Positions 33,029 through 42,727 of a stretch of 64,000 nt of DNA are shown here, one piece after another. The stretch spans positions 310,001 through 374,000 of the forward strand of contig NZ_CANNES010000002.1 in the NCBI RefSeq assembly GCF_947503705.1, read 5' to 3'. The first letter of the stretch is position 1; every line of letters begins with the position of its first letter. The notes below the pieces were generated by a model that saw nothing but the letters and a program-made list of their open reading frames with translations, was not told where the DNA came from and did not search any database. Made by a program: the position numbers and the translations under genes. The DNA is from an uncultured Tateyamaria sp. Lineage in GTDB: Bacteria > Pseudomonadota > Alphaproteobacteria > Rhodobacterales > Rhodobacteraceae.

Positions 33029-33940
33029 ATGGACCGTCGCCTGACCCAATTCCTTGCCGTTGCCGAGGCCGGCAATGTCTCTGCCGCCGCAGCAGCCCTG
33101 AACGTGTCGCAGCCGACAATTTCAGTGAACATCCGCAAGCTGGAGGAGGAGCATGGCGTGCCGCTTTTCACTCGCAGTTCGCGGGGTGTTGTGCTGACCG
33201 AATTTGGCAAGGTGTTGTGCGAGCACGTGCGGGTGATGGCGCGCCTGAACGACCACGCCAAGGCCGAGATCAGGGCGATGAAACAGGCCAACCGACCAAG
33301 CCTCAAGATCGCTTGCGGCTTCACCTGGTGGCATCTCTTTGTGCGCGACGCTATCCGCGACTGTGCGACGGATGCGCCTGACGCGGCCCTGCATGTGGAC
33401 ATTTGCAGCAGTCTGGACGGGTTGCGCCACCTGATGTCGGGGGATGTATCCTGCTTTATCGGCACCAGGGTGGACAATATCACCGGGGGCATGGGTTTTC
33501 GGTTCGCGCCGCTTTTGGCTGTCGAGGATGCCTATTTCACACGTCAGGATCACCCGCTGATTGGGCAGGTCATCACGCGCCGGGACTTGTCCGCCTATCC
33601 GCGCATGGATGTCGCCCCGTTCGTCAACCGGCACTTTGGGATTGCCGAACCAACGGGCACGCCCGGGCTTTGGCCCAAAGAAGCGCCCGCGCACCTGTCT
33701 ACCAACTCGATGACTGCGGGGATCGGGATGCTCAAGGACAGTGAGGCCTATCTGATCTATCCGATGTTGACCCAGGAGTATTTCGCGGCACAGGGCATCG
33801 GGATGCTGAATGTCAGCGACCGCCCCACGCACAAGATCCAGATCGGGACCTACACGCTGGCGGAAAAGACGCCGAGTGAATTGCAGATCGCCTTTCTTGA
33901 TCGGATTACGCAGGTCGTGGCGGGCGAGAGGATGCCCTGA
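33029..33940 (+). CDS. LysR family transcriptional regulator
   Basis: 303 residues. The N-terminal winged helix is RRLTQFLAVAEAGNVSAAAAALNVSQPTISVNIRKLEEEHG, with the recognition helix at about 28-40. The remainder is the effector-binding domain, with DHPLIGQVITRRDL characteristic of the co-inducer fold. It is transcribed divergently from the aglE-like gene, the usual layout for a LysR regulator and its target. Its 3' end overlaps the convergent LacI-type gene by 35 nt. The start ATG 33029 lies close to a palindrome that may be its binding site. Confidence 0.92.
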   Translation: MDRRLTQFLAVAEAGNVSAAAAALNVSQPTISVNIRKLEEEHGVPLFTRSSRGVVLTEFGKVLCEHVRVMARLNDHAKAEIRAMKQANRPSLKIACGFTWWHLFVRDAIRDCATDAPDAALHVDICSSLDGLRHLMSGDVSCFIGTRVDNITGGMGFRFAPLLAVEDAYFTRQDHPLIGQVITRRDLSAYPRMDVAPFVNRHFGIAEPTGTPGLWPKEAPAHLSTNSMTAGIGMLKDSEAYLIYPMLTQEYFAAQGIGMLNVSDRPTHKIQIGTYTLAEKTPSELQIAFLDRITQVVAGERMP

Positions 33941-34937
33941 CCACCAGTTCGGGCGCGCAATGCTCGCCCGTGATCGGAGTGTCGGGCGTCTTGATCGCGG
34001 CGGCCAACCCCTGGCCTGCCTTGCGTCCAATCCGCTGTGCGGGCAGGCGCACGGTGGTCAAAGATGGCTCTATGTCTGCCGACCCTTTGAAGTCGCCAAT
34101 GCCCACGATTGAGACGTCCTCGGGCACGCGCAAGCCCGCCGTCATCGCCGCATAGATCGCACCGGTGGCCAGAATGTCATTGCCACAGATCAAGGCGGTC
34201 GGTTTGCGGTCTTGGGCAAAAAGCTCGCTTGCGTCTCGTTTCGACGCCGAGATGCTGTAGATCGTTGTGCGTGTCCAAGTCTCAGGCACCTGAACGCCCG
34301 CCTGCGCAAGCGTGTCGAGGATCGCGGTGCTGCGCGCTTTGGCCCGGTCGTTGCCTTCGGTTGGCGCGAACATGCAGGCCACATCGCGATGGCCCAGTGA
34401 CAGGACGTGATCCGCGATCATCTGGCCCGCCAATTCATTGCTCGCCCCAATAGAGGGGTATTGGGACCCGTTGGCATAGTTCCACATCAGCACGGTCGGC
34501 ACCGCCTGGCTGTCGAGCAGTTGAAACACCGCCGCGTCATGATCCAGGCCTGTTAGGGCGACCCCGTCCACCCGGTGTTCAAGGAATTTGCGCAGGATGG
34601 CGTATTCGCGCTGCTGATCATAACCATGCGAGGCCAGCAGGATTGTGAACCCTTCGTCGGCCACGGTTTCGGAGAAGGCCTGCACCACTTCGGCAAAGAT
34701 CGTATGTTCGATCGTGGGCACCAAAACCCCGATGGTTCCAGAGCGGATCCCATGGATCGTCTGGGCCGCGCGGTTGCGAATATAGCCCTGGCTGCGCACC
34801 GCCCGTTCGATCCGCCTGCGCGTCGACAGCTTGAGCAATTCGGGGTGGTTGAAGTAGCGCGAGACGGTGGAAGCAGAGACCTTAGCCGCCTTGGCGACCG
34901 TCAGGATATCCGCTTTTTTTCGTTCTTTTTCAGTCAT
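33906..34937 (-). CDS. LacI family transcriptional regulator
   Basis: 343 residues. The helix-turn-helix with hinge is ILTVAKAAKVSASTVSRYFNHPELL, followed by RRRIERAVRSQGYIRNRAAQTIHG. The periplasmic-binding-like effector domain starts TIGVLVPTIEHTIFAEVVQAF, with HVLSLGHRDVACMF and PTALICGNDILATGAI, all standard for the family. It is divergent from the tctA gene with a 94-bp gap holding an AT-rich dyad, so it most likely represses the transporter / sauS / sauT genes. The convergent LysR gene overlaps its 3' end. Confidence 0.92.
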   Translation of the reverse strand: MTEKERKKADILTVAKAAKVSASTVSRYFNHPELLKLSTRRRIERAVRSQGYIRNRAAQTIHGIRSGTIGVLVPTIEHTIFAEVVQAFSETVADEGFTILLASHGYDQQREYAILRKFLEHRVDGVALTGLDHDAAVFQLLDSQAVPTVLMWNYANGSQYPSIGASNELAGQMIADHVLSLGHRDVACMFAPTEGNDRAKARSTAILDTLAQAGVQVPETWTRTTIYSISASKRDASELFAQDRKPTALICGNDILATGAIYAAMTAGLRVPEDVSIVGIGDFKGSADIEPSLTTVRLPAQRIGRKAGQGLAAAIKTPDTPITGEHCAPELVVRASSRPPRPA

Positions 34938-34961
34938 CTGGATGCGCTTTTGAGCTAATTT

Positions 34962-34989
34962 ATGAAAACATTTGCAAAACTATTTTCAT
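34962..34989 (+). promoter_or_regulatory. Probable LacI-type operator upstream of the tct-sau genes
   Basis: Inverted arms ATGAAAA and TTTTCAT flank 14 nt that include ATTTGCAAAA, making overlapping half-sites of the form TGAAAAC/TGCAAAA. It lies between the LacI-type gene and tctA, 42 nt upstream of the tctA start. AT-rich dyads of this kind are usual LacI-family operators. Confidence 0.6.
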
Positions 34990-35031
34990 GCCATAGCCTA
35001 GTTCGTCAAGCAGCGTTGCGGGGAGGCAGCG

Positions 35032-36543
35032 ATGGAATTTCTGTTCTATATGGGCGACGTGTTCACCCCGATCAATTTCGGCCTTTTGCTGCTGGGCACC
35101 ATTGGCGGGTTGATCCTTGGGGCCACCCCGGGCCTTTCACCGACGATGGCGGTGGCTCTGCTTATCCCCTTCACCTTTCAGCTTGAGGCGGCGCAGGGTC
35201 TGATCCTGCTTGGGGCCGCCTATACCTCGACTGTTGCAGGCGGGGCCGTCAGTGCCATCCTGCTGAAAATCCCCGGTGCGCCTGCCAATATCGCGACGAC
35301 CCTTGATGGCCATACAATGGCGCAAAAGGGTCAGGGCGCGAAGGCGTTGCAGATCAGTTTTCTGGCCTCGGCCGTGGGTGGCGTCTTTGGCGTTTTGCTG
35401 CTGATCTTCCTGACCCCCGTTCTGGCGCAATGGGCATTGGCGTTTGGGCCAAGTCACCTCTTTTGGCTCGCAATTCTGGGTGTGACTGTCATCGGATCGC
35501 TGGACAGCAAGTCGGTGGTCAAGGGCCTGCTGTCGGGTTGTATCGGGCTGTGGCTGGCCACCATCGGCTTTGACGACATCATGGGGGCGCAGCGGTTTAT
35601 ATTTCACCCGGCTTTAGGCGGCGGGATCAACATAATTGCCGCTCTCATCGGTCTCTTTGCCATCCCACAGGTCATCACCATGTTCGCCAAGGGGCGTCAC
35701 AATGACGGGGCCGAGGTGATCAAGGTGCAAAAGCATCCCATTTCGGGTGCCTTTCGCGAATTGATGCGCAGCAAGCGTGCCCTTGGCATCGGCACTGCAA
35801 CCGGGTCGATCATTGGGCTGATCCCCGGTGTCGGCGGGCAGATTGCGGGTCTTGTGGCCTATGACCAATCTAAGAAGTTCAGCCCCGATCGCGAAAAATT
35901 CGGCACGGGCCATTCCGAAGGCGTCATTGCCGCAGAGTCCGCAAACAACGCCATGGTTGGCCCCTCTCTGGTGCCCTTGCTGACACTGTCGATCCCTGGA
36001 TCGCCTACGGCGGCGGTGCTGCTGGGGGGCCTGTTGATCCACGGGATTTTCCCCGGCTCGGACCTGTTTGACAACCACCCTGATGTGGCGTGGACCTTTA
36101 TCAATTCCATGCTGATCGGGCAGATCCTGATGTGCATCTTTGGGCTGTATGTTGCCGGTCTGGCGGCACGTGTGGCCCAAGTGCCGCAATCGGTGATGGC
36201 CGCGGTCGTGTTGGGTCTTGCCGTCTTTGGCAGCTATTCGGTGCAGTCGTCCATGGGCGACGTCTATGTCATGGCAAGCCTTGGGGTGATGATGTATTTC
36301 CTGGAACGCTTCGGCTTTTCCGCCGCCCCGTTGGTACTTGGCCTGATCCTTGGGCCCATTGCGGAGGCGAACTTTATCCAAGGATCGATGATCGCCAATG
36401 CCACCGACGGCATGGCCCCCTATTTCCTCGGCGGTCGTCTGAACATCCTGCTGATCGGGGTGGTGGTCGCCTCGATCCTCTATTCCGGCTACATGGAGCT
36501 GCGCACACGCCGCTACACCTCAAAAGAGGAGATTATTGCATGA
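35032..36543 (+). CDS. Tripartite tricarboxylate-type transporter, large membrane subunit (TctA)
   Basis: 503 residues with about 11-12 membrane segments. The family signature GGLILGATPGLSPTMAVALLIPFTF lies at about 25-50. Later there is a duplicated motif GIGTATGSIIGLIPGVGGQIAGLVAYD near 245-270, followed by GVIAAESANNAMVGPSLVPLLTLSIPGSPTAAVLLG. It is the main transport subunit of a secondary carrier that takes solute from a periplasmic binding protein. The stop overlaps the TctB start by 4 nt. Clustering with sauS/sauT suggests a sulfonate or carboxylate substrate. Confidence 0.93.
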   Translation: MEFLFYMGDVFTPINFGLLLLGTIGGLILGATPGLSPTMAVALLIPFTFQLEAAQGLILLGAAYTSTVAGGAVSAILLKIPGAPANIATTLDGHTMAQKGQGAKALQISFLASAVGGVFGVLLLIFLTPVLAQWALAFGPSHLFWLAILGVTVIGSLDSKSVVKGLLSGCIGLWLATIGFDDIMGAQRFIFHPALGGGINIIAALIGLFAIPQVITMFAKGRHNDGAEVIKVQKHPISGAFRELMRSKRALGIGTATGSIIGLIPGVGGQIAGLVAYDQSKKFSPDREKFGTGHSEGVIAAESANNAMVGPSLVPLLTLSIPGSPTAAVLLGGLLIHGIFPGSDLFDNHPDVAWTFINSMLIGQILMCIFGLYVAGLAARVAQVPQSVMAAVVLGLAVFGSYSVQSSMGDVYVMASLGVMMYFLERFGFSAAPLVLGLILGPIAEANFIQGSMIANATDGMAPYFLGGRLNILLIGVVVASILYSGYMELRTRRYTSKEEIIA

Positions 36544-37010
36544 GCGCGCCGTCCCTGCCCCGCCTTCAGCATATCGTCGGGTCTGGCATCGTTGCCGCCG
36601 TGGGCGTCGTAGTGGCCTATATCAGCTATACCCAGCAACCCTCCGAGGCGTTCCTGTTTCCGCGCCTGATCGCGACCGTCTTTGTCGTTCTGGCGTTGTG
36701 GACCTTTGCCAAGGCGTGCCTTGGCTGGACAAAGGTCGGCAACGGGATCAGCGGGCGGCAATTTGCCAATCTGCTGCCCGGGCTGGTCGTGGCACTGATC
36801 TATATCTTCTGGGCAGCCAAGGGGGTGGGATTTTACACCGCCACGACCATCGCCTTTTTCATTCTGCTGAGCCTGTATGATCCGGCGCCCCACATGGCGC
36901 TGAAGTCATGGGTCAAGCGCATCATCATCACGGCTGGTTTCATGGCCGTTATGTACGGTCTCTTTGCGAAACTGTTGAACGTCTACACACCGCGAGAGGT
37001 CTTTTTCTGA
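36540..37010 (+). CDS. Tripartite tricarboxylate-type transporter, small membrane subunit (TctB)
   Basis: 156 residues with four hydrophobic segments, as expected for TctB. SEAFLFPRLIATVFVVLALW in the first half is the conserved family part. The ATG overlaps the TctA stop (ATGA). The frame is open for 150 codons further upstream, but inside tctA. It completes the membrane part of the transporter. The gene order tctA-tctB-tctC is the reverse of the order in classic tctCBA operons. Confidence 0.87.
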   Translation: MSAPSLPRLQHIVGSGIVAAVGVVVAYISYTQQPSEAFLFPRLIATVFVVLALWTFAKACLGWTKVGNGISGRQFANLLPGLVVALIYIFWAAKGVGFYTATTIAFFILLSLYDPAPHMALKSWVKRIIITAGFMAVMYGLFAKLLNVYTPREVFF

Positions 37011-37055
37011 ACCGCAAGAGCGGCAGGAAATTCACATCCTAGGGAGGAACTGACT

Positions 37056-38024
37056 ATGAAATCTTTACTTGCAGGAGCGGCCATCGCATTGGCCGGAATG
37101 ACCGGGGCGGTCATGGCCGACGGACACGCGAATTACCCCGAGCGGCCCATCATGATGATGGTCAGCTATGGGGCCGGTGGGGCCACCGACTTTCAGGCGC
37201 GCATCGTGACCATGACGGCGGGCAATGAGGATGCCCTGGGCATGCCCATCGCCATCATCAACAAGCCCGGTGCGGGCGGGCGCGTCGGTTGGAACTGGCT
37301 GGCGGGGCAAGCCGAGGCCGATGGCTATACGCTGGGGGCCTATAACATTCCCCATTTCATCGCCCAGTCCATCAAGGGCGGCGTGCAATACTCGCGCGAC
37401 AGCTTTGAACCTATCGCCAACTGGGGCGCTGATCCTGCCGTTCTGGTCGTGGGTGCCGACAGCGCATTCAACACGCTTGAGGATGTTGTGAGCTTTGCCA
37501 AGGAGAACCCCGGCAAGCTGACCACCTCTGGTGCGGGCCTCTTTGTTGGTCACCATATTGCAGCGCTCCAGATGGAAAAAGCGGGCGACATGAAGATGGC
37601 CTATATTCCCACCAAAGGGGGCGGGGCCGCAGCCATGAAGGCCGTGATCGCGGGTGACGTGATGGCAGGCATCAATAACCTCAGCGACGCGTTCCGCGCC
37701 CGTGAGGCGGGCAACGTCAAAATCCTCGCCGTGGCCGACCTTGAGCGGAACGCGTTTCTGCCGGATGTGCCCACCATGATGGAAGCGGGACTGGATGTGG
37801 ACAACTCGTCCGTCAACTTCCGGGGTGTCATGGTGCCCAAGGGCACGCCGCAAGGCATCATCGACAAGCTGGCCGAAACCGTGCCAACAATGTTCGAAAA
37901 CAGCCGCGTCGCAGGCAAGATGAAAGCAGGCGGTTCGCCCATGCACGTCATGACCCGTGACGAAGTGCTGGACATGTGGGCGGCGCGCGAGGAAACCCTC
38001 AAGGAACTGCTTGCAGGTCTCTGA
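37056..38024 (+). CDS. Tripartite tricarboxylate-type transporter substrate-binding protein (TctC/Bug)
   Basis: 322 residues. The signal peptide is MKSLLAGAAIALAGMTGAVMADG. The Bug-family hallmarks are YPERPIMMMVSYGAGGATDFQAR and NKPGAGGRVGWNWLA near the N terminus, plus LPDVPTMMEAGLDV near the C terminus. It captures the solute in the periplasm for the TctAB carrier. A strong ribosome site (AGGGAGGA) precedes the ATG. The downstream enzyme genes make sulfoacetate the best guess for ligand, but this is inference. Confidence 0.92.
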   Translation: MKSLLAGAAIALAGMTGAVMADGHANYPERPIMMMVSYGAGGATDFQARIVTMTAGNEDALGMPIAIINKPGAGGRVGWNWLAGQAEADGYTLGAYNIPHFIAQSIKGGVQYSRDSFEPIANWGADPAVLVVGADSAFNTLEDVVSFAKENPGKLTTSGAGLFVGHHIAALQMEKAGDMKMAYIPTKGGGAAAMKAVIAGDVMAGINNLSDAFRAREAGNVKILAVADLERNAFLPDVPTMMEAGLDVDNSSVNFRGVMVPKGTPQGIIDKLAETVPTMFENSRVAGKMKAGGSPMHVMTRDEVLDMWAAREETLKELLAGL

Positions 38025-38078
38025 AACCATATCGGCGGGGCGCATCACTCGCCCCGCCGCACCCTGAAGGATTTCACC

Positions 38079-39482
38079 ATGAATGCCCCTGATGATCTAG
38101 CCGAAGTGGACGCCATCGTTGCCCGCGCCCGTGCTGCACAGGCCCGGTTTGAGGCGGATGGATCGCAAGCACTTTATGACCGCGCCGCACAGGCCGCCGG
38201 TTGGGCCATCATGGAACCTGCCCGCAATCGCCATTTGGCCGAGCTGGCCGTCGAGACGACGGGCCTGGGCAACGTGCCCGACAAAATCACCAAGAACCAT
38301 CGCAAGACGCTGGGCCTGATGCGCGACATCGCGACGGCCAAGACCTTTGGCGTGATCCGCGATGACCCGGCCACCGGCATCACCGAGATTGCCCGCCCCA
38401 TCGGCGTTATTGGGGCGGTCGTGCCCTCGACCAATCCCGGGGCGACGCCCGCCAACAACATCATCAACGCGGTGAAGTGCGGCAATGCCATTGTCGTGTC
38501 CCCTTCGCCCAAAGGCGTGCCCACCTGCGAGGCGCTGCTGGGCTATATCCATGCAGAGTTCGACAAGGCCGGGATCGACCGCGATCTGGTCCAGATGATC
38601 CCCGGGCGTGGGTCCAAGGACAAGACGCAGCGGTTGCTAGAGACTGCCGACCTTATCGTCGTGACGGGCAGCCAGAACAACGTGCGCCGCGCCTATACGT
38701 CGGGCACGCCTGCGCTGGCCGTGGGGGCCGGGAATGTAACCGTGATCGTGGACGAGACTGCCGATCTGGCGGCGGCGGCGGACAAAATCCGCGCCTCGAA
38801 AACCTTTGACAATGCGACGTCCTGTTCGTCCGAAAACTCGGTTGTGGTGGTCGATGCGATTTATGATGCGTTTGTCGCGGAAATGGCCCGCACCGGCGGC
38901 GCGCTGATCAAAGATGAAAGCAAAGTTACCTGCAAACTGTGGGTCAAGGGCCACCTTAACCCCCATGCCATCGCGCGGGACGCGGATCAGATGATCGACG
39001 CGTTGGGCCTGAGCGGCGAAGTGCCCGAGGGTACCGAATACCTGGCTGTGGAAAGTACCGGCATTGGCCCCGATCATCCGTTGTCGGGTGAGAAGCTGAG
39101 CCGGGTTTTGACTGTCTACCGGGCCTCTGATTTTGACGCGGCTGTCCAGACTGCCCGCGCCATTCAATTGCATCAGGGGGTGGGTCATTCGGTGGGCATT
39201 CACACCGCTGATCCCGAACGCCCCTTGACCTTGGCGACCGCCATTCCGACCAGTCGGATCATTGTAAATCAGGCTCATACCTTTGCCACTGGCGGCTCCT
39301 TTACCAACGGGATGCCTTTCTCGCTGTCTATGGGCTGTGGCTCCTGGGGGGGTAATTCGATCGACACGAATGTGCATTGGCGCCATTTCATGCAGACCAC
39401 AAAAATCGTGCGCGAAATTCCGGGGCACGAACCTGATCCAAGCGCGTTTTTCGCCGACTATTGGGCAGCCTACGGCAAATGA
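38079..39482 (+). CDS. sauS: Acylating aldehyde dehydrogenase, probable sulfoacetaldehyde dehydrogenase (SauS-like)
   Basis: 467 residues, CoA-acylating aldehyde dehydrogenase of the AdhE/EutE side of the superfamily. RPIGVIGAVVPSTNPGATP and KCGNAIVVSPSPKGVPT bind the dinucleotide. The catalytic Cys is about residue 249 in FDNATSCSSEN. FATGGSFTNGMPFSLSMGCGSWGG near the C terminus is typical of the SauS group. SauS interconverts sulfoacetyl-CoA and sulfoacetaldehyde. A general acylating aldehyde dehydrogenase remains possible, but the next gene is a small-acid CoA ligase overlapping by 4 nt, which is the sauST arrangement known from sulfoacetate degraders. Confidence 0.8.
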   Translation: MNAPDDLAEVDAIVARARAAQARFEADGSQALYDRAAQAAGWAIMEPARNRHLAELAVETTGLGNVPDKITKNHRKTLGLMRDIATAKTFGVIRDDPATGITEIARPIGVIGAVVPSTNPGATPANNIINAVKCGNAIVVSPSPKGVPTCEALLGYIHAEFDKAGIDRDLVQMIPGRGSKDKTQRLLETADLIVVTGSQNNVRRAYTSGTPALAVGAGNVTVIVDETADLAAAADKIRASKTFDNATSCSSENSVVVVDAIYDAFVAEMARTGGALIKDESKVTCKLWVKGHLNPHAIARDADQMIDALGLSGEVPEGTEYLAVESTGIGPDHPLSGEKLSRVLTVYRASDFDAAVQTARAIQLHQGVGHSVGIHTADPERPLTLATAIPTSRIIVNQAHTFATGGSFTNGMPFSLSMGCGSWGGNSIDTNVHWRHFMQTTKIVREIPGHEPDPSAFFADYWAAYGK

Positions 39483-40984
39483 TCTTTACGCCTGACCATC
39501 CGCCCCAAGGCACCATTCGCGATTGGCTGAACGGCCGTGCGGCGGATGGTGGCACGGCGATTGTGTTTCCTGAAACGGGCGAGGTACTGAAATGGGCCGC
39601 GCTGCGCGATACGGCGGCGGCCATGGCTCAGGCGATGTACGATCAGGGCATCGTCAAGGGCGAGAGCGTCGCCATCATACACCCCAACGGAAAAGATGGC
39701 GTTCTGGCCATTTACGCGGCCCTGTATGGCGGATTTCGGGCGACGATGATCAACCTTGCGGCCGGACCTGATGCCATCGCCTATGCGCTGGAGCATTCCG
39801 GTGCACGCTTTGCCTTGGTGCATGACAGTCAGCGCGAAACCTTTGCTCAAGTGGCACCGGACGGGATGCAACGGCTTGATCCTGCGCGTGGCGGCGCGGC
39901 GGCGTTGCCTGCACTTTCGCCGGATGATCATGCGTTGCTCATGTATACCTCAGGCACGACTGGCAAGCCCAAAGGCGTCGTGCACAGCCATTCCAGCCTG
40001 CTGGCGGGCGGATGGACAACCGCTGTGGCTCATGCGCTTGCGCCCGAGGATCGTGGGTTTTGCGTCTTGCCCATCTATCACATCAACGGGCTGTGCGTGA
40101 CGATGATGGGGGCGCTGGTGTCGGGGGGATCGCTTGCCATGACGGCCCGCTTCTCCGCCAGCAAGTTCTGGGATCAGGCGGATCAGGCGCAGGTCACCTG
40201 GTTTTCGGTTGTGCCCACCATCGTCAGCCATCTGTTGCACGGCGCGGCCAGCCCGACGCCTGCCTTGCGCGACCGGCTGCGCTTTGGCCGTTCGGCGTCT
40301 TCGGCCCTTGCGGTAGAGACGCAATCGGCCTTCGAAGCCCGGTTTGGCGTGCCCATCGTCGAGACCATGGGGCTGACCGAAACCGCCGCCCAAATTCTGT
40401 CAAACCCCCTGCCCCCCGGCATCCGCAAAGTGGGCTCGCCCGGCGTGCCGTTCGGCAATGAGGTTCGGATTCTGGATGCGGCTTTGGCCGAGGCCCCGCG
40501 GATGCAAGAGGGCGAGATTGCCATTCGCGGCCCCAATGTGATGCGCGAGTATCTGAACAACCCTGAGGCGACGGCCCAGACATTCGCAGGCGAATGGTTG
40601 CGTACCGGCGATCTAGGACACATGGATGCGGATGGCTACGTCTTTGTCACCGGGCGGCTCAAGGAGTTGATCATCAAGGGCGGCGAGAACATTGCGCCGC
40701 GCGAGATTGACGAGGTTCTGTACTCGAACGCGGATGTGGTCGAGGCGGCCGCCTTTGCCCGGTCCTGCCCGCGCTATGGCGAAACTGTCGAGGCGGCGGT
40801 GGCCCTGACCGATGGATCGGGTCAGACCGGAGCCGATCTGGTGGCGCTGTGCCAAAGCCGCTTGGGGAAGTTCAAGTCGCCCGATATCATCCATATTCTG
40901 GATGAGCTGCCCAAGGGGCCATCGGGCAAGATCCAGCGGCTGAAATTGTCAGACCTGATCCCGGCCCCGCAAGCCGCCGAATGA
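39479..40984 (+). CDS. sauT: AMP-forming acyl-CoA ligase, probable sulfoacetate-CoA ligase (SauT-like)
   Basis: 501 residues, ANL superfamily. The P-loop-like AMP motif is LLMYTSGTTGKPKGVVHSHS (about 152-171). VETMGLTETAAQILSNPLPP is the adenylation core, LRTGDLGHMDADGYVFVTGR carries the hinge Asp, and GPSGKIQRLKLSD near the end carries the catalytic Lys. It activates a short carboxylic acid as the CoA ester. Being fused by an ATGA overlap to the SauS-like gene, its substrate is most probably sulfoacetate, giving sulfoacetyl-CoA. It converges with the transglutaminase gene 6 nt later. Confidence 0.8.
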   Translation: MIFTPDHPPQGTIRDWLNGRAADGGTAIVFPETGEVLKWAALRDTAAAMAQAMYDQGIVKGESVAIIHPNGKDGVLAIYAALYGGFRATMINLAAGPDAIAYALEHSGARFALVHDSQRETFAQVAPDGMQRLDPARGGAAALPALSPDDHALLMYTSGTTGKPKGVVHSHSSLLAGGWTTAVAHALAPEDRGFCVLPIYHINGLCVTMMGALVSGGSLAMTARFSASKFWDQADQAQVTWFSVVPTIVSHLLHGAASPTPALRDRLRFGRSASSALAVETQSAFEARFGVPIVETMGLTETAAQILSNPLPPGIRKVGSPGVPFGNEVRILDAALAEAPRMQEGEIAIRGPNVMREYLNNPEATAQTFAGEWLRTGDLGHMDADGYVFVTGRLKELIIKGGENIAPREIDEVLYSNADVVEAAAFARSCPRYGETVEAAVALTDGSGQTGADLVALCQSRLGKFKSPDIIHILDELPKGPSGKIQRLKLSDLIPAPQAAE

Positions 40985-40990
40985 TTGGCC

Positions 40991-41767
40991 TTAGAGGCGT
41001 GTGACAACCACGCTTTGATGGATGAAGTCCGCCCAATGGGACGTTTCCATGAACGCCACGTCGCCTGCATCGCGCCCGCAGGCGACGACGGCCATGCCCT
41101 CGGCCACGCTCATCCCTGTGGCGTCCACCAGATGCCACGCATCGTTGAGCCAGACCTGCGCCACCGCATGAAAATCCTGCGGATCCACATCGGCCCCATA
41201 GACCGAAGCGTAGCGTGCCGGAAGGCCCGCAGCTCGGGCCAAAGTACAGACCAGATGGGTATAGTCGCGACACACCCCCTGACGCGATACAAACGTATCC
41301 ATGGCGGTTGTGCCGCCGTGCGAGCTGCCGGGTCTGTATTCGATTTCCTGGCGGACCCAATCGAGGATGGCGGTGGTTTTCGCGCCGCCCTCCAGATGGC
41401 CGAACTGCCGCTGCGCAAAGGTGGTGAAAAGGTCGGACTGGCAATAACGCGAGGGGCGCAGATAGGTCAGAACCGTGCTTGGCAGGCTGTGCGCGGGGCT
41501 TGCCGCCAACACATCCAAAGTGACAGCAGGGCGCGTGATCTCGACCGTCGCACCATAGCGCAAATCAAGGCGCGTGCCCGGCACCATGGCCCAGACCCAT
41601 TGGCCCACCTCCGCCTGCCCACTTACTCGCTGCAAACTCGCATCAGTGATGTCCAGTGCGCTGTCCAGGATCGTCTGACCTTCGGCGACCGCAACCTCGA
41701 GCGCCAAGAGAACGGGGTCGGCCTTGGCAATCTGATAGGCCATTTCAACGTCAATTCTGATGCGCAT
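40991..41767 (-). CDS. Transglutaminase-like cysteine protease family protein
   Basis: 258 residues. An N-terminal beta domain (about 1-110) precedes the transglutaminase fold, whose triad is visible: Cys in VSRQGVCRDYTHLVCTLAR, His in PQDFHAVAQVWL and Asp in WHLVDATGMSVAEG. Such bacterial proteins are usually cytoplasmic peptidases or amidases of unknown substrate. ATG 41767 (MRIRIDVEMAY) is the family start; the open frame upstream is not supported. It is last in a minus-strand run after the PhyH-like gene, separated by 177 nt. Confidence 0.87.
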   Translation of the reverse strand: MRIRIDVEMAYQIAKADPVLLALEVAVAEGQTILDSALDITDASLQRVSGQAEVGQWVWAMVPGTRLDLRYGATVEITRPAVTLDVLAASPAHSLPSTVLTYLRPSRYCQSDLFTTFAQRQFGHLEGGAKTTAILDWVRQEIEYRPGSSHGGTTAMDTFVSRQGVCRDYTHLVCTLARAAGLPARYASVYGADVDPQDFHAVAQVWLNDAWHLVDATGMSVAEGMAVVACGRDAGDVAFMETSHWADFIHQSVVVTRL

Positions 41768-41944
41768 GTGTGCCCCCATTCTCATACGCCCGGCACATCG
41801 TCCGCCGGGATTGCGGAGCACTATGCGACAGGTTGCGGCACGGAAAGCAGATTTTCAGGTCACGGGCCGCGACACGGACGCACAGCACCGGAGCACTGCC
41901 GAAAAATGCGGCGCGATGTAGCGTTGAGGAATAAGTCCCTGCGC

Positions 41945-42727
41945 TTAGTGCAGGATCGGAAACCAGTCGGTACGCAGCCTGTCACCCGGTGCCATGCCAT
42001 GGCCCGGAAAGGGCGGCGAGGTGGGGCCGGGGCGCGCGACATAGCGCGCGTCGTCTCCCACCATCCGCACCGAGAACGCTCGCCGTCGCGTTGTGCTTGT
42101 GTTGCCGCGCGCGCCATGCAGCGTGCGGAAGTGAAAGGCCACTGCGTCGCCCGGCTCCATCTCGAATTCGACGATCCGCATCCCTTCCGACTCTGGATCC
42201 GGCACCGGGATATAGTCCCCTTCAAAGAAGGCTGCTTCGGACACCCAGCGGGTCGGCACCACATCCTTGGGCCACAAATGCGAACCCGCCACGCAGCGCA
42301 GCGTTGCCGCGCGCACCGGATCGAGGGGCGACCAAAAGCTGATCGTCTGCCGCCCTTCGACGAAATAGTATGGATTGTCCTGATGCCAGGGCGTGGCCAT
42401 CGAGGTGCCCGGCTCTTTGACCAGCACATGGTCGTGAAAAAGCTGCACAGTTTTTGACCCCATAAGGTCCGCCGCCACCGTCGCTGCGGGAGCCGCCCGC
42501 AACACCTGAGCGAATTCGGGGATACGCTGCCAATTGCAATAGTCGTCAAAGAAGAGGCCCGTTTCGCCCGCCCGGTCATTGGTCGAGGCATAAGGGCCGG
42601 GATCGGCCATGTTGCGCGCCACACCCGCGCGCAAATCCTCAACGTAATCGGCAAAGAGGCCACGGATCAACACCACGCCGTCCGCCTGATAGGTGGCAAT
42701 GTCGTCCGGGGTTAAAATAGGGTGCAT
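41945..42727 (-). CDS. Phytanoyl-CoA dioxygenase (PhyH) family Fe(II)/2-oxoglutarate oxygenase
   Basis: 260 residues. The iron ligands HxD are in TPWHQDNPYYFVEG, the distal His in FRTLHGARGN and the 2-oxoglutarate-binding Arg in RRRAFSVRMVGDD. GDAVAFHFRTLHG is a PhyH family mark. It hydroxylates a small organic molecule with O2 and 2-oxoglutarate. Bacterial PhyH proteins act on substrates from ectoine to secondary metabolites, so none is assigned. It lies 9 nt downstream of irr on the same strand, so an iron-dependent enzyme is expressed together with an iron regulator. Confidence 0.87.
   Translation of the reverse strand: MHPILTPDDIATYQADGVVLIRGLFADYVEDLRAGVARNMADPGPYASTNDRAGETGLFFDDYCNWQRIPEFAQVLRAAPAATVAADLMGSKTVQLFHDHVLVKEPGTSMATPWHQDNPYYFVEGRQTISFWSPLDPVRAATLRCVAGSHLWPKDVVPTRWVSEAAFFEGDYIPVPDPESEGMRIVEFEMEPGDAVAFHFRTLHGARGNTSTTRRRAFSVRMVGDDARYVARPGPTSPPFPGHGMAPGDRLRTDWFPILH

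Follow-up and report, generated by a model that had tools for sequence, protein, structure and literature searches.

The small sulfonates exchanged in the sea include sulfoacetate, for which no part of the cycling is less certain than the carriers. The sauRSTU locus of Cupriavidus necator H16 (PMC12625764, PMC7057948) combines SauS and SauT with a dedicated regulator, SauR, which is reported to respond to sulfonatoacetate (PMC7057948). In Bilophila wadsworthia, SauXYZ has been named a putative tripartite tricarboxylate transporter (TTT) for sulfoacetate (PMC12625764), and its SauCD and SauS are summarised in PMC12890257. More recently, sauST clusters with a TTT carrier were reported from two dominant Arctic sponge symbionts and called a hybrid type, between the Cupriavidus and Bilophila systems (PMC12625764, mSystems 2025). 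The available part of PMC13372026 mentions sulfoacetate only as a breakdown product of sulfoquinovose. Here we analyse a 64,000-nucleotide (nt) stretch of DNA from an uncultured Tateyamaria sp. (contig NZ_CANNES010000002.1, positions 310,001 to 374,000; hereafter the window), in which five plus-strand genes, tctA-tctB-tctC-sauS-sauT, span positions 35032-40984 and are divergent from a LacI-family regulator gene.

The window shares SauS, SauT and a dedicated regulator with C. necator H16, whereas the carrier there is a single major facilitator superfamily (MFS) protein, SauU, and here TctABC; no MFS carrier of the Cupriavidus type was found among the genes scanned, and TctABC stands between the regulator and sauS instead. 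The sauXYZ-sauSCD system of B. wadsworthia has a TTT carrier and SauS in common with the window (PMC12625764, PMC12890257), but it uses an ADP-forming ligase, SauCD, in place of SauT, and converts sulfoacetaldehyde to isethionate and not through Xsc. The operon ligase of the window is instead an AMP-binding enzyme.

We read this locus as an operon for sulfoacetate uptake and activation, with a probability of about 0.85. In the proposed pathway TctC would bind sulfoacetate in the periplasm and TctAB would import it; SauT, judging from its gene context, would convert sulfoacetate, ATP and coenzyme A (CoA) to sulfoacetyl-CoA, AMP and pyrophosphate. SauS, whose family assignment is seen, would then reduce sulfoacetyl-CoA to sulfoacetaldehyde, and Xsc and Pta, whose genes are seen elsewhere in the genome, would from family knowledge yield sulfite and acetyl-CoA. 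The divergent LacI protein would most likely repress the operon from a conserved 28-base pair (bp) site and would be relieved by sulfoacetate or a product thereof.

Evidence for the substrate

The strongest substrate evidence is a related locus (L132) in which LacI is followed by tctABC-sauS-sauT-xsc-pta as one run on one strand. The gap from sauT to xsc is 37 nt and that from xsc to pta 10 or 31 nt; the Xsc of this locus scores 951 bits, and its pta is 57% identical to that of the window's own genome. Xsc is known to act on sulfoacetaldehyde, which makes sulfoacetate the best candidate substrate of SauT and of the TTT carrier, and the xsc-pta pair behind the cassette supports the earlier note in naming it the likely one. 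In a second locus (L130), genes for another TTT, sauS (product at 45-47% identity), a pair of ADP-forming-ligase-type genes and xsc follow one another in one run. Among 13 Burkholderiales-type sauS loci, three carry xsc on the opposite strand, some 6 kb away from sauS; at a cut-off of 676, L193 (937 bits) and L200 (912 bits) pass, and L195 (661 bits), where the locus end cuts the gene, falls just under. Yet another locus (L169) has a gene for a TauE/SafE-type sulfite exporter just downstream of sauT.

At the genome level, xsc was found in 41 of the 44 genomes with SauS over the cut-off versus 146 of the other 251 (Fisher p 2e-6, with no correction for relatedness). These counts were collated by eye, with 187 genomes carrying xsc at an E-value of 1e-190 or better, 186 of them over the cut-off; G160 and G181, two of the three sauS genomes without xsc, were counted as lacking it from its absence among the matches listed. 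In the genome of the window itself, xsc (897 bits, cut-off 676) is on a different contig (C1) from the window (C2) and directly adjoins a phosphotransacetylase gene (TIGR00651, 354 bits, cut-off 311). In this region (L097:7633-18843) a MocR-type regulator gene stands next to xsc, and further off come an aminotransferase-like gene (about 4.6 kb) and a taurine-type ATP-binding cassette (ABC) ATPase gene (about 7.6 kb, under its cut-off); the region looks like one for a taurine pathway.

The xsc data also bear on whether the ligase and the acylating dehydrogenase of the cassette apply the same chemistry to a different sulfonate, such as 3-sulfopropionate. A CoA-ligase and acylating dehydrogenase pair for 3-sulfopropionate does exist (HpfX and HpfYZ, in the available part of PMC12890257), and the specificity of the cassette for sulfoacetate is a presumed one. 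Against this, xsc, acting on sulfoacetaldehyde, is in the same run in both L132 and L130, and sauS and xsc co-occur across genomes; we regard a different sulfonate as improbable.

The enzyme pair SauS and SauT

The window SauS passes the curated equivalog NF047625 (cut-off 600, residues 9-467; score in Table 1), with AdhE as runner-up family at 337 bits, which bears out the identity proposed in the earlier note. Closer homology to propionaldehyde or succinate-semialdehyde enzymes, which that note had named as contrary evidence, was looked for and the opposite was found: SauS is 35% identical to SucD and 36% to AdhE, versus 46-56% to the other two SauS groups. Thirty-four SauS-type sequences, drawn from the window clade, the Burkholderiales-type clade and the loci without sauT (L197 left out), were aligned; they conserve the catalytic cysteine and SauS-type residues. 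Cys249 is present in 42 of 42 alignment rows. At 32 positions SauS has a letter that neither SucD nor AdhE shows; at 23 of them it is kept in 34/34 SauS-type rows and at 9 in 33/34. The compared segments of SucD and AdhE do not reach three of the 32, and a second, under-cut-off subfamily shares some. Asn126, Ser143, Ser198, Thr247-Ser248, Asn253 and His400 are examples of the 23 invariant ones. On its family assignment, SauS would probably act on sulfoacetyl-CoA.

A tree of SauS was built from 49 of 119 extracted sequences, after five short ones (L184-L188) and two loci without a SauS of more than 400 residues had been dropped. The window clade (23 rows) is recovered with support of 100/99 and joins the Burkholderiales-type group with 95/93, the branching order there being open. 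Within the latter group, L195 has an IclR-type regulator gene, then an MFS gene and immediately after it sauS-sauT; its carrier arrangement resembles the one reported for C. necator. The second acylating dehydrogenase subfamily (L181, L171, L173, L175, L177, L179, L182, L183) is 35-38% identical to the window SauS and scores 415-468 bits, under the cut-off. Its loci share a conserved run with an acetolactate-synthase-type thiamine diphosphate enzyme and a xylose-isomerase-like TIM barrel; the run of L181 (2232-10796) additionally contains genes for a citryl-CoA-lyase-like protein, a QuiC/HPPD-like protein and a tripartite ATP-independent periplasmic (TRAP) carrier.

SauT is an AMP-forming CoA ligase (Pfam AMP-binding). 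A search of bacterial genome contigs gave 129 relatives, of which the best 80 loci were taken: 49 encode close relatives (57-80% identity) and 31 remote ligases (27-36%), beside which no SauS was detected. Because sauS lies directly upstream of sauT in 47 of the 49 close loci, the arrangement is no chance one. The remaining two are a locus cut by the contig start (L053) and one with a SauT fragment (L061). This fragment (L061:3494-3967) is C-terminal, 71% identical over residues 337-494, and neither SauS nor a SauT N-terminus was detected in the preceding 3.5 kb; it is possibly a decayed cassette. The earlier note's pairing of sauS with sauT, and its dedicated divergent regulator, are both supported, and we infer from gene context that sulfoacetate is the SauT substrate.

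Several observations weigh against sulfoacetate and have to be set beside this. Among the window-clade sauS loci examined, only L132 has xsc adjacent, and in three of the 44 sauS genomes, which are 86-96% complete drafts, no xsc was detected. The window SauS scores lower on NF047625 than other SauS groups (668 versus up to 779 bits). SauT reaches no curated cut-off among the best 25 of 106 families, which include no SauT model, and its nearest solved structures are oxalate-CoA ligases. TTT carriers can also move carboxylates, as in Ruegeria pomeroyi, whose tctABC is assigned to citrate in the available part of PMC10130141. The last two points would suit a route without any sulfonate, in which a carboxylic acid such as oxalate or malonate is activated and its CoA ester reduced to the aldehyde. 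SauS is over its curated cut-off, however, with residues invariant in 34/34 SauS-type rows and absent from SucD and AdhE, and xsc is linked in L132 and L130; on the xsc linkage and the SauS residues, oxalate and malonate were set aside, and we consider this route quite improbable. Enzymes running backwards, to make sulfoacetate for export, are very improbable: such a reverse route with SqwD and the ADP-forming ligase SqwKL is described in the available part of PMC12890257, but an AMP-forming SauT favours activation, a periplasmic binding protein points to uptake, and xsc-pta follows the cassette in L132. Sulfoacetate uptake and activation remains our preferred reading.

Carrier, regulator and operator-like site

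The TTT genes of the window type precede sauS in 43 of the 47 sauS-sauT loci. LacI is visible in 39 of these 43; in the other four (L021, L041, L043, L054) the DNA stops short of that position. This leaves four of the 47 (L042, L044, L045, L046), in which LacI and sauS-sauT are followed by a different TTT. In the window's family, SauS over the cut-off was found in 44 of 295 genomes, 33 of which have the window-type TTT (L145 by tctC only, at a contig end; sauT is cut off in L160). Two have a different TTT downstream of sauT (L138, L139) and four a different one upstream (L161, L162, L166, L169). Another two have a different TTT without sauT: in L130 the two ADP-forming-ligase-type genes come after sauS, and L127 has open reading frames (ORFs) of similar size there. 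Three genomes are left over. L128 has a TTT on the opposite strand, about 3 kb downstream; in L129 the opposite strand carries a tctC-like gene at a distance of 5-7 kb, and the stretch gave no TctA match; L168 has sauS-sauT at a contig end that cuts the locus. Thus a TTT is adjacent in 39 of the 40 family genomes of the sauS-sauT kind, the fortieth being L168. Several loci of the SauT search and of the family genomes come from the same genome (e.g. L013 and L151, with the same intergenic region). Longest-frame ORF calling mislabelled antisense frames in GC-rich loci (e.g. L132, L138, L191, L198), and positions there were taken from tblastn. The operon is real, conserved and widespread, and its probable function was read correctly in the earlier note.

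Three TctA lineages stand beside sauS-sauT in the window's SauS clade, with 32-36% identity between lineages in a comparison of 18 sequences (L139 left out as too short). Within lineages, identity is 74-87% for the window type, 85-90% for the downstream type and 86-99% for the upstream type. The two loci without sauT, L127 and L130, have a TTT that is 59-62% identical to the upstream lineage. In the SauS tree the loci with a downstream TTT form one group (99/93), L161, L162 and L166 are nested inside the window type (group support 100/97; L162 is from the window's own genus), and L169 stands elsewhere on a long branch. On this tree at least three carrier changes with the enzyme pair kept are needed, although some joins are weak (e.g. 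around L169 and L133). Three distant TTT lineages beside one enzyme pair provide genomic support for the carriage of sulfoacetate by TTT systems. Solved relatives of TctC include BugD, Bug27 and a terephthalate-binding protein. A lone TctC-like binding protein (29-33%) is encoded just before sauS-sauT in 8 of the 13 over-cut-off Burkholderiales-type loci (L191, L192, L193, L194, L196, L199, L200, L201), and no TctA was detected in the stretch examined.

The LacI orthologues of relatives keep the same divergent position at 46-78% identity. The intergenic region contains a 28-bp operator-like site (Table 1), within which lies a LacI-type operator core. As a pattern with wildcards at variable positions, drawn after the sites were seen, it occurs in 65 of the 66 distinct LacI/first-gene intergenic regions (from 74), with exactly the window's sequence in 36 of them; the one region left deviates by a single mismatch. 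In the family it is found in 32 of the 295 genomes, once each, all among the 44 with SauS; the reversed pattern, used as control, gave 0 in all genomes listed. Sites lie within sau loci in 31 of the 32 genomes, and in G158 the site is on another contig than its sauS. Six genomes whose loci have no adjacent LacI despite room upstream (L159, L160, L161, L162, L166, L169) gave no site even with 2 mismatches allowed. In L166 a partial LacI match lies 8.6 kb away, and L161 has an IclR-type gene upstream. The site also precedes sauS in the downstream-TTT loci, and therefore follows the regulator, not the carrier.

In the window's own genome the site is single copy at up to 3 mismatches, and xsc is therefore no predicted LacI target. 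A wider LacI regulon was rejected for want of a second site at this threshold. We give even odds to the proposal that LacI is a dedicated sensor of sulfoacetate that works through a single 28-bp operator of almost invariant sequence, and that the pathway is modular, the TTT being exchanged between distant lineages and the enzyme pair fixed. With its single-copy operator-like site, the conserved cassette offers a precise marker by which likely sulfoacetate users could be counted in genomes and metatranscriptomes, and a regulator, site and operon forming one unit suggest use as a biosensor.

The layout proposed earlier, with a divergent LacI gene, tctA-tctB-tctC and sauS-sauT overlapping by 4 nt, was confirmed by ORFs and family scans (Table 1), the LacI gene lying just outside the interval 34938-40984 of that note. 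The sauS-sauT overlap is ATGA (39479-39482), and tctA and tctB also share 4 nt. Between tctC and sauS the window has a strong hairpin. The letters vary among relatives, and a helix of at least 8 bp is present in 64 of 67 distinct tctC-sauS gaps, and of 6 bp in the other three, versus 6% of single-base shuffles, in which dinucleotides are not preserved. The mRNA of binding-protein genes is often protected by such hairpins, and a role as mRNA processing or stabilising element is probable.

Table 1 Positions in the window of the cassette genes and associated elements
Feature	Position	Strand	Basis
LacI-family regulator, probable operon repressor	33906..34937	-	Pfam LacI + Peripla_BP_3
28-bp operator-like site ATGAAAACATTTGCAAAACTATTTTCAT	34962..34989	.	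pattern conservation in LacI/first-gene intergenic regions
tctA, TTT carrier large membrane subunit	35032..36543	+	Pfam TctA 454 bits
tctB, TTT carrier small membrane subunit	36540..37010	+	Pfam TctB 51 bits
tctC, periplasmic binding protein	37056..38024	+	Pfam TctC 131 bits
tctC-sauS intergenic hairpin, probable mRNA processing or stabilising element	38033..38059	+	10-bp stem
sauS, acylating (CoA-dependent) sulfoacetaldehyde dehydrogenase	38079..39482	+	NF047625 668.4 bits; catalytic Cys249
sauT, AMP-forming acyl-CoA ligase, probable sulfoacetate-CoA ligase	39479..40984	+	Pfam AMP-binding 233 bits + C-terminal domain

Outside the cassette, a LysR-type regulator gene (33029-33940, plus strand) shares 35 nt with the 3' end of the LacI gene, and just past sauT (40991-42727) the minus strand carries one transglutaminase-like and one phytanoyl-CoA dioxygenase-like gene. 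None of these three was detected beside the cassette in relatives. Among neighbours shared by at least 5 of 48 loci, nothing was found beyond the cassette except an ABC ATPase (8/48, mostly about 8 kb off).

Relation to known sulfoacetate systems

The earlier note had regarded the TTT version as a new, distinct find. This did not hold, since sauST with a TTT carrier is already reported in PMC12625764 (2025), as its available sections show. The sponge-symbiont clusters and the window share SauS, an AMP-type SauT and a TTT in one cluster, with predicted sulfoacetate uptake and breakdown, and sauS, sauT and TTT genes together are what defines the hybrid type in those sections. They differ in that the same sections make no mention of a LacI regulator or operator; the likeness drawn here is one of description, not of sequence. 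The literature searched yielded no account of sulfoacetate genes under a LacI regulator. The label 'marine' given to this version is plausible from the names of the relatives. The operon is thus a further, widespread member of the hybrid type already described, made of known parts, to which the present analysis adds, as new details, the operator-like site, the tctC-sauS hairpin and the carrier exchange.

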